This document shows positions 1,199-57,046 of a stretch of DNA of 64,000 nt, piece by piece. Numbering within the stretch: the first letter of the stretch is position 1; each line of letters begins with the position of its first letter. The stretch lies in the NCBI RefSeq assembly GCF_025629245.1, contig NZ_JANZXN010000006.1:1-64000 (forward strand). The letters run 5' to 3'. Position numbers and translations under genes: made by a program. The DNA comes from Natronobiforma cellulositropha. GTDB taxonomy: Archaea > Halobacteriota > Halobacteria > Halobacteriales > Natrialbaceae. Under the pieces are notes generated by a model. That model had not been told where the DNA came from. It ran no database searches and worked only from the letters and a program-made list of their open reading frames with translations.

Positions 1199-4100
1199 TC
1201 ACTCGAGCGCCGTCGCGCTGCCGGTGGCGGTCCCCGCTGCGGGTGGCTCTGCGACCGGGATCTCGAGGGTGACGACCGTTCCGCGGGGCTCGTTCTCGGC
1301 GAAACTGAGGGTGCCCCCGGAGTGGGTGACGACCCAGTTGACCAGCCAGAGACCGAGACCGCTGGCGTGGCGTAGCTGGGTGATCTCTTTCTCCTCGAGT
1401 AAGAGTTCCTGTTCTTCGGTGGGGATGCCAGGGCCGTTGTCGGCGACCGAGAGCGTGAGGAAGTCGTCGGCCGGGTCGACCGACACCGAGAGGGCGGTCG
1501 TCGGCAGGTCGTTGTGGACGACGGCGTTCTCGACGACGTGGTGGATGGCGGTCTCGAGCATGTCGTCGGCGCGGGCGTAGACGCCGTCGTCGGGATAGGA
1601 ACGCGAGACGGTGATCGTCGCGTCGGAGAGGTCGTTCTCGACGGTCTCGATGGCGGTCTCGACGCTGTCGACGATGTCGATGGGACCGGTGGCACCGTCG
1701 CGGCGGTCGAGGGTCCGCTCGACGGCGCGGGTCTTCTCGGCGAGACCGATGAGTTCGCCGGCGCGCTCCTGGATGACGTCGGCGTACTGGCGGTTGGTCT
1801 CGTCCTCGACGACGTCGGCGAGCATCTCCGCACAGCCGTTGATGATGTTCATCCCGTTTCGTAGGTCGTGGCGGAGGACGCGGTTGAGAATCTCGACGCG
1901 CTTCTGGCGCTGTTTCTGCTCGGTGATGTCGGTGTAGACGCCGAAGGCGCGTTCGGGGTCGGCTCCCGACTCGAGGTCGACCGGGACGACGCGCATCATG
2001 AAATCGCGCAGGCCGTCGCTCGTCCGGCGTTTCACCTCGGTCTCGACGGTCTCGCCGTGAGCGCCACGGCGGTTGATCGTGTCGGCTTCGGCCCGACGGT
2101 CAGTCGGGACGATGAAGCGGTCTAACGGCTGGTCGGCGACGTCCGCCTGGTCGAAGCCGAAGACGTGTTCGAACGCCGGGTTGACGCGCTCGACGACGGG
2201 GTCGTTCTCCGTGCCGTGGCGCGCGCTGACGACCGCGTCGGGGACGTTCTCGAAGAGGGCGGCGAACCGGTCGCGCTCCTCTCTGAGCTGTGACCGGAAG
2301 GCCATCCGCTCGACGGCGTCGGCGACGTGTGAGAGCAACAGTTCGGCGAGTTTCTGGTCGTGCTGGTCGAACGCTTCGACGTCGGTCGAGAGGGCGACGA
2401 ACGCACTCGAGCGGCCGACGGGGATACTCAGCGCCGAGCAGACGGGGCGGTTGGCCGCCGGTGAATCGTCGTCTGTCGGTTCGTAACTCACGAGTTCGCC
2501 GTCGGCCGCGTCGTCGACCTCGTAGAGGAGGTCGGTGGCGTCGATGATCCCGGTTCGATACGTCTCCTGGCTCTCGACGACCGTCCGCGCGATTGCGTTC
2601 ATCGTGGTCCGCTGTGCGTGATCGGCGGCGAGGTCCGAGGAGACCGCTTCGACGGCGACTGCGTTCTCCTCGACCCGACAGACCGCACAGACGTCGAAGT
2701 TGAGGACGCCCGCTGCGGCGTGGACGGTCTCCTCGAAGAGTTCGCGGTCGCTCTCACAGAGTTCGAGGCGGGAGGCGACCTCGTGGAGGTGGGTGGTCTT
2801 CTGTTTTCGTTCCCGGAGTTCGCGTTCCATGCGCTTGCGCGCGCTCACGTCGCGGACCGTCCCGACCGACCCCGCGTACGTGCCGTCTTCACGGAGGACG
2901 GTCGTCGTCAGTTCGCAGGTGATCGTCTCACCGTCGCGGCGCTCGAGCGGCAACTCGTAGGTCGCGACGTCGCCGCCGGTGCGCAAGAGCGTCTCGATCT
3001 GGCGCTGGCCGCGTTCGTAGGTCGTCTCCGAGAGGACCGTCGAGACGTGGCTGCCGAGGAGGTACTCGCGCGAGTAGCCGACCATCGCCGCGAGCGTCTC
3101 GTTGACCGTGACGAAGGTTCCCTCGCGGTCGAGACCGTAGACGCCGTCGCCGACGGTCTCGACGATCACCTTCGCCTGCTCGAGTTCGCGCTGTCTTCGC
3201 GCCCGGTCGAGGGCGGCCTCCGCGGTGGCGGCGAGGACGTAGGTCATGCGGACGTCGGTCTCGTCGAACGGCTCCGGAGACGCAGACGCGACGGCGAGCA
3301 GACCGTGTTCGCCGAGCGGGTAGAGCGCGACGTTGCGCGCACCGGGTCTCGTTCCCGGCGGGACGAGGTCGGCGGTCAACTCGTCGATCACGCGCGGCTG
3401 CTGGCGGTCGTAAACCTCCCAGAACAGGCCGCCGTCGGGACCGATCGGTGGCGGGAGACCGTGGCGCTCGCGAACGCGTTCTGTGACCGCGGCACACTCG
3501 AGGCGGTTCGTCGCCTCGTCGTAGAGTCGAACGCTCGCTTTCGGGCGCTCGATCACGTCGTCGACGGCGGCGACGGTCAGCCTGGCGATCTCCTCGGGAG
3601 TCTCGGCGAGCATGAGATCGTGAGTGGTCTCCTGGAGCGCTTCGAGAACGTCCGCCCGCTTGTGGTCGGCGGTAACGTCCTGAACGCACGAGAGGAGTCC
3701 GGTGACGGTTCCCGTCTCGTCGACCAGTGGGACGTTGAGCCACTCGCAGGTGACGCTCGAGCCGTCGCGGCGGACGTTTCGCCCCCTCGTGCGGTGTGCA
3801 CGCCCACGCGAGCGGAGGTGTTCCCAGTAGCTGCGGACGGCGTCTCGCTCCTCGTCGGGGACGAGTATAGCCGTCACGTGCGCGCCGAGAGCCTCGGTTT
3901 CGGTGTAGCCGAACAGGTCCGTCGCCGCGTCGTTCCAGGCGACGACCTCGAACTCGCGGTTCCACTCGATGATCGCGAGGGGTGCCTGCGCCGTGAAGAG
4001 TTCGTCGTGCGGGCGGGAGAGTGCCGGATGGCTCCCGGCGTTCGCGCGCGCCCGGTCGACGGCGAGTTCGACGACGCGCGAGACGAGCGTCTCGACGCCC

Positions 4101-55091: not shown

Positions 55092-55343
55092 GGTGGTGTT
55101 TAGTTTAGCTCGATCCGCCGATCCGTTGGCCGCGAACGCCCAGAAAGCCCCGACGCTCTCGAGGGCTGCGACTCGCTGTCGTTCGAGAGAGCAGCGCTCT
55201 CTCGTGACTGAGCGAATCGGAGATTCGCGAGGTCACGAAACGGCTGCGCCGTTTCGAACGATCTCGCACCTCGGGAGCGTCGCCCCTTTCAGCCCCAGCC
55301 AGCGGCGGTTGGTCGGCTGGTTTTCGCCTAACTAAACACGACC
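55092..55343. mobile_element. MITE-like element, 252 bp, with 8-bp target duplication
   Basis: Left end GGTGGTGTTTAGTTTAG and right end (reverse complement) GGTCGTGTTTAGTTAGG are terminal inverted repeats. CCGAGCCA flanks both sides (55084-55091 and 55344-55351), an 8-bp target duplication as made by IS1595-type elements. Inside are three tight hairpins: CGAGAGAGC/GCTCTCTCG (55184-55204), CGAATC/GATTCG (55213-55227), CGAAACGGC/GCCGTTTCG (55236-55256). No transposase is encoded, so it needs a helper. Confidence 0.82.
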
Positions 55344-55361
55344 CCGAGCCAAGGCCAAACA

Positions 55362-55367
55362 TATAAA
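55362..55367 (+). promoter_or_regulatory. TATA box of the AT-rich membrane protein gene
   Basis: TATAAA, 25-30 bp before ATG 55392 and only 10 bp beyond the right target duplication of the MITE. Spacing predicts a leaderless transcript. Confidence 0.6.
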
Positions 55368-55391
55368 TGTACCCAGGTTGTAACTTGTCCC

Positions 55392-55748
55392 ATGCCATTT
55401 GAAGAAATTACAACAGGATCAATTATTGTTATTATGTTCTCAGTTTCTATGGTAGTAGTGAGTGCAGTAAGCCTCATTGATATAGTTCTAGCCTCTAACA
55501 GCGTGAAGAAATCACGAGGTGGAAAAGTAATTTCATTTGGCTGGATACTCGTTGGGACAGGAGGCATTGGAATGATTGCATTGGTCACAACAGATACTAC
55601 GATTTCTGTACCACTTGCATTTGTGGGACTTCTCTTTACACTCAGCCTGCTCAGCTACGAGGCGATCCTTTATAATAGAAGTGGAATGGATGATAGGGTG
55701 CGCCCAAGTGCGCAGTGGTTGTTAAATCACACTAGAGGGAATAAATGA
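55392..55748 (+). CDS. AT-rich membrane protein, three helices, unrecognised
   Basis: A 118-residue protein with helices near 9-33, 46-66 and 70-92 and a polar tail. Codons end mostly in A or T, the reverse of all neighbours, so it was acquired from elsewhere or is under relaxed constraint. No family is recognised. It faces the Tat-exported protein at 56246 across 500 bp of mobile-element debris; an immunity-type role is only a guess. Confidence 0.6.
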   Translation: MPFEEITTGSIIVIMFSVSMVVVSAVSLIDIVLASNSVKKSRGGKVISFGWILVGTGGIGMIALVTTDTTISVPLAFVGLLFTLSLLSYEAILYNRSGMDDRVRPSAQWLLNHTRGNK

Positions 55749-55769
55749 CGACTTCTTCTGGAAGACCTG

Positions 55770-55880
55770 AAGGGAGAGCAATCCGGGACAGTTCGAACAC
55801 TGATATCGCTGCACCATAGGCGTTGCTCCGTGTCGCGTATATCTGCCACACTCATAGAGGTTGGTTCTGCTGCAATTATC
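55770..55880 (-). pseudogene. Transposase zinc-ribbon fragment
   Basis: On the minus strand the frame reads E-C-G-R-Y-T-R-H-G, then V-Q-R-Y-Q-C-S-N-C. The Q-R-Y-Q-C-x-x-C motif is the second zinc knuckle found at the start of many transposases. No catalytic part follows, and the flanks are unrelated, so this is a remnant. Confidence 0.5.
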
Positions 55881-56083
55881 GTGCTTAGTTAAGCGAGTTC
55901 CACCAAACGGCGAAGGCTTGTAACCGAGTTCGGCGGTTGTTGGATCAACGTAACTGAAGCTATTACTGAACGAGGAAGTACGTAAATTCGGTCCAGTCGC
56001 TACAACCACTAAGGCGGGCGATTTTCGCCGTGAATCAGCTGAAAATCACCCGCCTCATCCATCAGCCTTAATTAAACGCGACC
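55879..56083. repeat. Diverged inverted-repeat pair resembling the MITE ends
   Basis: TCGTGCTTAGTTAAG (55879-55893) and the reverse complement of 56067-56081, TCGCGTTTAATTAAG, agree at 12 of 15 positions and resemble the ends of the 55092 element. They bound about 205 bp without a gene. No target duplication is seen, so this may be an old or rearranged copy. Confidence 0.5.
56013..56054. terminator. Hairpin with 14-bp arms
   Basis: GGCGGGCGATTTTC (56013-56026) and GAAAATCACCCGCC (56041-56054) pair at 13 of 14 positions around a 14-nt loop. It lies inside the diverged element between two convergent AT-rich genes and could end transcription from either. The remaining 56090-56245 is AT-rich and has no supportable gene. 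Confidence 0.45.
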
Positions 56084-56245
56084 AGATATTCAGTCGGAAT
56101 AGATAAACCAACAAATTGTAAAGTCAGATATGCTTTTGAAAGCTCTCTAAATATAAGCCGGTCACATCCATAGGGAGGGTTAATATCGCACCACCCATAC
56201 CAATAAAAATTATATATATTCTTGAGACGATTATATTAATGTATT

Positions 56246-57046
56246 TTATTGTGGTTGGAATGTTATTCCAATACCCGGTACTGGGGGGGCTGCAGGATAA
56301 TGACGAATACGAACACCGCACCCTTCATTGGCCTCAAATATTAGCGTTGCACCGAGACCTGCGAGGACAGCAGCAACCCCCGAAACGACGCTAGCAGGAG
56401 CACCGATCCCGGTGGAAGCAGCAATCTTTGCTCCAATCACACCTGCTGCTGCTCCAGATGCCATCGCCGCCGCGATATTACGGCTCAGGCTATCGTCGAA
56501 GTAAAACGCGTGTCGTACTCCTCCACGCCAGGTGGTTTCTGCTTCATAATCGTTTCTTCCGCAGAGAGTATTGGTTTGCTGTGATTGACGATGTACGTTG
56601 AGTCCACTCGACGAACGCACCGAAACGTTCGTACTTGGTGGCTGTGATGGACCATGTTCGTTAAGTCCCTTCTGCGTTGGGACTACCCATGGTTCACCAT
56701 CTCTTTCTTCAAATCGGACATAACCATCAGATTTGGCTTCATTCAATCCTTCCACCCCCATCTGCACGTACCCATCAAGGTCGGTGTGCGAGACATCTGC
56801 AGTACTTTTTTCCGCTTGAGACGAGGAAACAGACCTCTCTGGGCCTCTATACACGAGCTCTCCATCTTCAAGTTCAACTTCCACTTCTTTTGAGTCGGTG
56901 TTTTTCCCCTTGTTCGCTTGAGCACTCGTCATCAGTGCTGTAGTTGTGAACAAACCAGCTGTGGCTGTTCGTACAAATTTCCGTCTCGTCTTTGGATCCC
57001 AGTCGCTATTGTTCACGGAAATTGTATTTGCGCATTGCCGACACAT
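56246..57046 (-). CDS. Tat-exported halocin-like precursor (putative)
   Basis: A 266-residue protein from ATG 57046; the in-frame GTG at 57016 is equally good because a TTTATG box lies 30 bp before it. The signal is twin-arginine (K-T-R-R-K-F-V-R-T-A, then a hydrophobic stretch to A-Q-A). The middle is acidic and Ser/Gln-rich. The last 80 residues contain a long hydrophobic Gly/Ala segment (about 190-236) flanked by two cysteines (162 and 243) and a Pro-rich tail. Halocin C8 is likewise a Tat-exported precursor of similar length with a hydrophobic C-terminal peptide, but I see no direct sequence match. AT-rich codons set it apart from the core genome. Confidence 0.65.
   Translation of the reverse strand: MCRQCANTISVNNSDWDPKTRRKFVRTATAGLFTTTALMTSAQANKGKNTDSKEVEVELEDGELVYRGPERSVSSSQAEKSTADVSHTDLDGYVQMGVEGLNEAKSDGYVRFEERDGEPWVVPTQKGLNEHGPSQPPSTNVSVRSSSGLNVHRQSQQTNTLCGRNDYEAETTWRGGVRHAFYFDDSLSRNIAAAMASGAAAGVIGAKIAASTGIGAPASVVSGVAAVLAGLGATLIFEANEGCGVRIRHYPAAPPVPGIGITFQPQ

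Follow-up and report, generated by a model that had tools for sequence, protein, structure and literature searches.

A probable two-gene antimicrobial cassette of a haloarchaeal family apart from halocin C8 in Natronobiforma cellulositropha

The genome of Natronobiforma cellulositropha (Natrialbaceae) contains two neighbouring genes which probably form an antimicrobial cassette, consisting of an effector precursor and a membrane immunity protein, that belongs to a family apart from halocin C8. Both genes were found in the window, which here denotes the whole analyzed stretch of 64,000 nucleotides (positions 1–64,000 of contig NZ_JANZXN010000006.1, assembly GCF_025629245.1). To our knowledge, the genes of only a few archaeal antimicrobials have been identified, and hardly any dedicated immunity genes have been described in archaea. 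If this reading is true, haloarchaea would harbor dozens of testable effector-immunity pairs, which would also suggest that membrane-disrupting helical-bundle peptides are common to bacteria and archaea.

The precursor gene (56249–57046, minus strand) and the membrane gene (55392–55748, plus strand) are convergent and separated by 498 bp. Their GC contents of 51% and 42%, respectively, contrast with roughly 61–76% in the flanking DNA, and their third-position GC contents are 41% and 36%. These values agree with the initial annotation, which had described AT-rich DNA with two genes unlike the host in codon use. In the window and in seven relatives, a DUF7344 gene is located just upstream of a saccharopine-dehydrogenase-like gene. 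The gap between these two genes spans about 510–830 bp in the four relatives for which it was measured, whereas it amounts to 2.2 kb in the window. Judged by this difference in gap length, the gene pair is an insertion in a conserved neighbourhood. The initial annotation had also placed the two genes face to face across the debris of mobile elements. The convergent arrangement was found as described and a repeat element is indeed nearby (55092–55343), but this element lies outside the pair, to its left, and the intergenic DNA (55749–56248) is mostly unique, containing a 50-bp stretch (about 56035–56083) that recurs elsewhere and a degenerate zinc-ribbon ORF. The genome contains 21 full or partial matches to the repeat element, this copy included. 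The element is multi-copy, has near-inverted ends, and resembles a non-autonomous transposable element.

The precursor comprises 266 amino acids, and its translation probably starts at the GTG at position 57016, because close relatives start at the position of Val11. A twin-arginine signal (TRRKFV...SAQA; motif TRRKFVRTATAGLF...SAQA) read from the sequence is followed by a hydrophilic middle part and by a C-terminal domain that extends from Cys162 to the end of the protein (residues 162–266; 56249–56563, minus strand). In agreement with the initial annotation, the protein was taken for a Tat-exported one on the RR motif and the layout as read by eye. The hydrophobic, Gly/Ala-rich C-terminal region between two cysteines, which had been pointed out as well, corresponds to about residues 186–235 between Cys162 and Cys243, with NEGCGV and a tail terminating in PQ next in the sequence. 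A structure model of the C-terminal domain was uninformative (pLDDT 37) and too poor for a fold search.

The counterpart of the precursor in Natronorubrum halalkaliphilum shows 75–82% identity. In the comparison with this species, dN/dS was 0.10 for the C-terminal 105 amino acids, 0.60 for the N-terminal part of the precursor, and 0.37 for the membrane protein. Since relatives under coding constraint are present in other genera, both genes are real beyond chance. By these rates, the conserved and working part of the precursor is its C-terminal domain; the leader is freer to change, as in precursors with a discarded leader. The comparative evidence supports the earlier prediction of an exported antimicrobial precursor with its active part at the C-terminus. 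Among 26 aligned C-terminal domains, which are mutually related and were counted with no correction for kinship, the first cysteine was present in all 16 domains with the GCG cysteine. In five others it was paired with a cysteine about 24 residues further on (DHC or DDC) and in one with a cysteine in the tail, and the four domains lacking the first cysteine contained no other cysteine. This all-or-none pairing points to a disulfide between Cys162 and Cys243. The profile matches reported below, the low dN/dS, and the co-conservation of cysteines together make the domain the predicted released peptide.

The membrane gene encodes a protein of 118 amino acids (P0002) and is the predicted source of immunity. 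AlphaFold2 modelled it with moderate confidence (mean pLDDT 69) as three long helices (residues 8–33, 42–66, and 72–97), in keeping with the small three-helix membrane protein that had been proposed. Next to the closest precursors, relatives of P0002 are present in two further genera, namely in Natronorubrum halalkaliphilum and Natrarchaeobius chitinivorans, with both genes being convergent in the window, on the same strand in N. halalkaliphilum, and divergent in N. chitinivorans. The alignment with the N. halalkaliphilum locus (L075) reaches about 40 bp upstream of the membrane gene, and this conserved DNA (55349–55391, plus strand), which includes the AT-rich CATATAAATG, is the gene’s own probable promoter region.

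Two copies of a region of roughly 450 bp (85–93% identical; L075 4395–4845 and 6192–6753) flank the pair in N. halalkaliphilum. A larger segment of the N. chitinivorans genome, comprising the pair and a transposase-like ORF, is located between 282-bp copies with 97% identity (L076 3054–3334 and 5802–6083), which extend into the pyruvate kinase gene. At both loci, the brackets are long direct repeats derived from the local chromosome, as though the cassette had been integrated through recombination with homologous flanks. No such direct-repeat bracket was found around the pair in the window. It appears that each genome acquired the cassette independently, perhaps through recombination with local DNA.

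The unusual spacing of 498 bp with debris between the genes and the inversion of the membrane gene relative to the precursor, as compared with N. halalkaliphilum, would also suit a decaying remnant of a pair that is genuine in relatives but defunct in N. cellulositropha. We consider this very unlikely, because neither reading frame is interrupted, both genes have dN/dS values under 1, with the lowest in the C-terminal domain, and the membrane gene retains its conserved upstream DNA.

Small membrane genes recur beside other members of the precursor family. A gene for a membrane protein of 58–131 amino acids with two to four helices was located within 400 bp of 11 of the 13 members in the first set, compared to only one of 90 control genes of similar size, which were taken from 20 stretches of related genomes plus the window. 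The more widely spaced pair in the window is outside these 11. Fisher’s exact test yielded p of about 5e-12 for this enrichment, a value that overstates the independence of the members because they are related. Of 13 further loci, seven have a small membrane gene of this kind within 500 bp, one of these being the plasmid copy L111 described below. Distant precursors have a small membrane gene of their own, mostly within 250 bp, that shows no sequence relation to the other partners. Altogether, the partners represent many unrelated families, which track the precursor subfamilies and vary in orientation: for example, the partners of HCNCNDIIDML-type precursors are three 69-aa proteins, and those of YLSD-type precursors are three proteins of about 124–129 amino acids. 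In the loci examined for the subfamily ending in SSQHCDC, no small membrane neighbour was found. Immunity genes would be expected to show this picture, in which a secreted precursor is accompanied by a small membrane gene whose type and orientation change. Hence, both the recurring linkage and the turnover of partners argue for the immunity role that the initial annotation had considered for the small membrane protein. At locus L132, two different 69-aa membrane proteins of one family are encoded downstream of the precursor (1162–1869), at distances of 58 and 452 bp. They form a tandem of immunity-like paralogs.

Halocin C8 (TIGR04449), with which the precursor had been compared in size and layout, is likewise a Tat-exported haloarchaeal precursor of about 270–290 amino acids with a C-terminal peptide. 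The resemblance in size and in the order of Tat leader, N-terminal pro-part, and C-terminal peptide was confirmed, but it does not extend to kinship: hhalign probabilities of 0.2% and 0.1% amount to nothing detectable, and the C-terminal domain has two cysteines compared to about ten in C8-type sequences. No TIGR04449 domain was found in the N. cellulositropha genome, and C8-type genes occur in 18 of 101 genomes of the same host family. According to Sun et al. 2005, as cited in PMC12893001, a single gene directs both production of halocin C8 and immunity to it, whereas a separate membrane gene is the likelier immunity factor here. If the precursor worked like halocin C8, its N-terminal part would confer immunity, and the membrane gene would assist export, take part in processing, or be a mere bystander. 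Such a division of labor would agree with the C8-like size and layout, which is that of C8 precursors found in relatives, and with the SSQHCDC subfamily and its missing membrane neighbour. We nevertheless regard it as quite unlikely, given the fast evolution of the leader and the strong enrichment of small membrane genes beside family members. A 125-aa membrane gene with four predicted helices is located right downstream of some C8-type precursors as well (L077 1042–1419 and L082 1022–1399); such a neighbour would not be expected if the precursor were always its own source of immunity. HmHapP (HFX_0892) of Haloferax mediterranei is also a secreted precursor that is activated by an extracellular halolysin and yields a helical active peptide (PMC12893001). 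Its active part comprises the N-terminal 45 amino acids, whereas the active part is presumed to be C-terminal here; the likeness is one of described properties.

A profile search with the C-terminal part, as had been proposed initially, defined a haloarchaeal family. The single-sequence search had detected relatives of the precursor in 18 of 392 genomes of the class, whereas the profile detected relatives of the C-terminal domain in 29 of these 392 genomes. A deeper profile placed the domain in 24 of 125 genomes and nine of 29 genera of the host family. By this distribution, the domain family is patchy and accessory in haloarchaea. In most full-length members, a Tat-like signal precedes a short conserved pro-region (LN.A...G...FEE.DG), after which a variable linker leads to the C-terminal domain. 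Neither the precursor, its C-terminal domain, nor the membrane protein was matched by any model in Pfam, NCBIfam, or PADLOC. Individual members gave weak hits in PHROGs, Pfam, and NCBIfam, which were mutually inconsistent and were dismissed as chance. Clear enzymes or S-layer components among the homologs, which had been named as evidence against an antimicrobial function, did not turn up in the database searches. A survey by Makarova et al. 2019 reportedly used signal peptides and gene neighbourhoods to predict archaeal precursors that had not been characterised, and the family may already be in its list of candidates.

Members of the P0002 family also occur between conserved genes without any precursor in five genomes. 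In four genomes of one genus (L028–L031, about 1360–1842), the orphan gene is always located between a gatA-like amidotransferase gene and a small helix-turn-helix-like gene; a further orphan relative was found elsewhere (L032 1489–1851). These genes are possible orphan immunity genes, or they possibly reflect an older cellular role. Such orphans, and the fact that a secreted protein with a cognate membrane partner also suits a ligand and its receptor, would be compatible with a function other than antimicrobial, namely a secreted signalling or surface protein that acts within the species through a membrane receptor or anchor. This explanation appears unlikely to us, because the partners are very small, mutually unrelated, and free of visible signalling domains, the family has a patchy accessory distribution, and the domain resembles bacteriocins.

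The last of these points derives from profile comparisons. When the C-terminal domain profile was searched against 177,635 PDB sequences, the circular bacteriocins enterocin NKR-5-3B (E = 0.056) and plantacyclin B21AG (E = 0.1) ranked first and second, and the same two proteins were on top with a larger alignment (E = 0.11 for plantacyclin B21AG and 0.38 for NKR-5-3B). A PDB search with the three closest sequences only retrieved nothing, so the similarity rests on the wider alignment. Profile-profile comparison with circular bacteriocins gave a probability of 40% and a score of 24.4; by comparison, 300 column shuffles averaged 8.5 and reached 18.2 at most, and the reversed alignment scored 14.8. 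Of five circular bacteriocins, three scored better than all of their 2000 self-shuffles, whereas AS-48 and carnocyclin did not. In Pfam, the domain did not match the circular bacteriocin group. The similarity, which is weak (E values of 0.06–0.4) and constitutes a lead and not proof, suggests a common fold, namely the saposin-like bundle of four to five helices typical of circular bacteriocins, for which the domain's model (pLDDT 37) was uninformative.

Circular bacteriocins (the uberolysin/carnocyclin group and the plantacyclin type, including enterocin NKR-5-3B, plantacyclin B21AG, and AS-48) share with the C-terminal domain a short hydrophobic, presumably helical core, the aromatic and hydrophobic start of this core with the pattern LT...G(A/S)...G..AA, and a presumed membrane target. 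Their immunity proteins span the membrane two to three times (PMC7132975), which is matched by the three modelled helices of P0002. In contrast to their short leader, a Tat leader and a long pro-region are present here, and instead of their head-to-tail ligation we find a candidate disulfide and an extra polar C-terminal tail. Head-to-tail ligation is disfavoured by this polar tail and the co-conserved cysteines. The genes for a SpoIIM-type membrane protein and an ABC transporter, which accompany circular bacteriocins, are absent beside the pair in the window, whose neighbours are the DUF7344 and saccharopine-dehydrogenase-like genes (compare L110).

As the putative mechanism, we favour a helical bundle that is closed by a disulfide and disrupts membranes. 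According to its signal, the precursor would be exported by the Tat pathway. The signal and pro-region would then be removed outside the cell, as halolysins cut a haloarchaeal precursor of another kind (PMC12893001), and a C-terminal domain of about 105 residues would be freed. This domain, presumably a hydrophobic helical bundle closed by the Cys162–Cys243 disulfide, as its cysteine co-conservation indicates, might disrupt the membranes of related haloarchaea like circular bacteriocins do with bacteria, a step suggested by the weak profile similarity. The three-helix membrane protein may protect the producer in that it captures the peptide in the membrane or blocks it there, in line with the gene linkage and partner turnover. 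A more far-reaching idea, which we put forward tentatively and with some doubt, is that the cassette encodes an archaeal counterpart of circular saposin-like bacteriocins, which is Tat-exported, closed by a disulfide and not ligated head to tail, and combined with exchangeable, unrelated small membrane immunity proteins.

Scans of viral contigs revealed no relative, so a viral origin is unsupported. Another contig scan, based on close relatives, matched two named genomes only. P0002 had no plasmid match, and one plasmid record contained a distant family member. In this record, a plasmid of Natrinema sp. SYSU A 869 (L111), the family member is annotated as hypothetical, and a small two-helix membrane ORF that is missing from the record’s gene table lies downstream of it, after position 3444.
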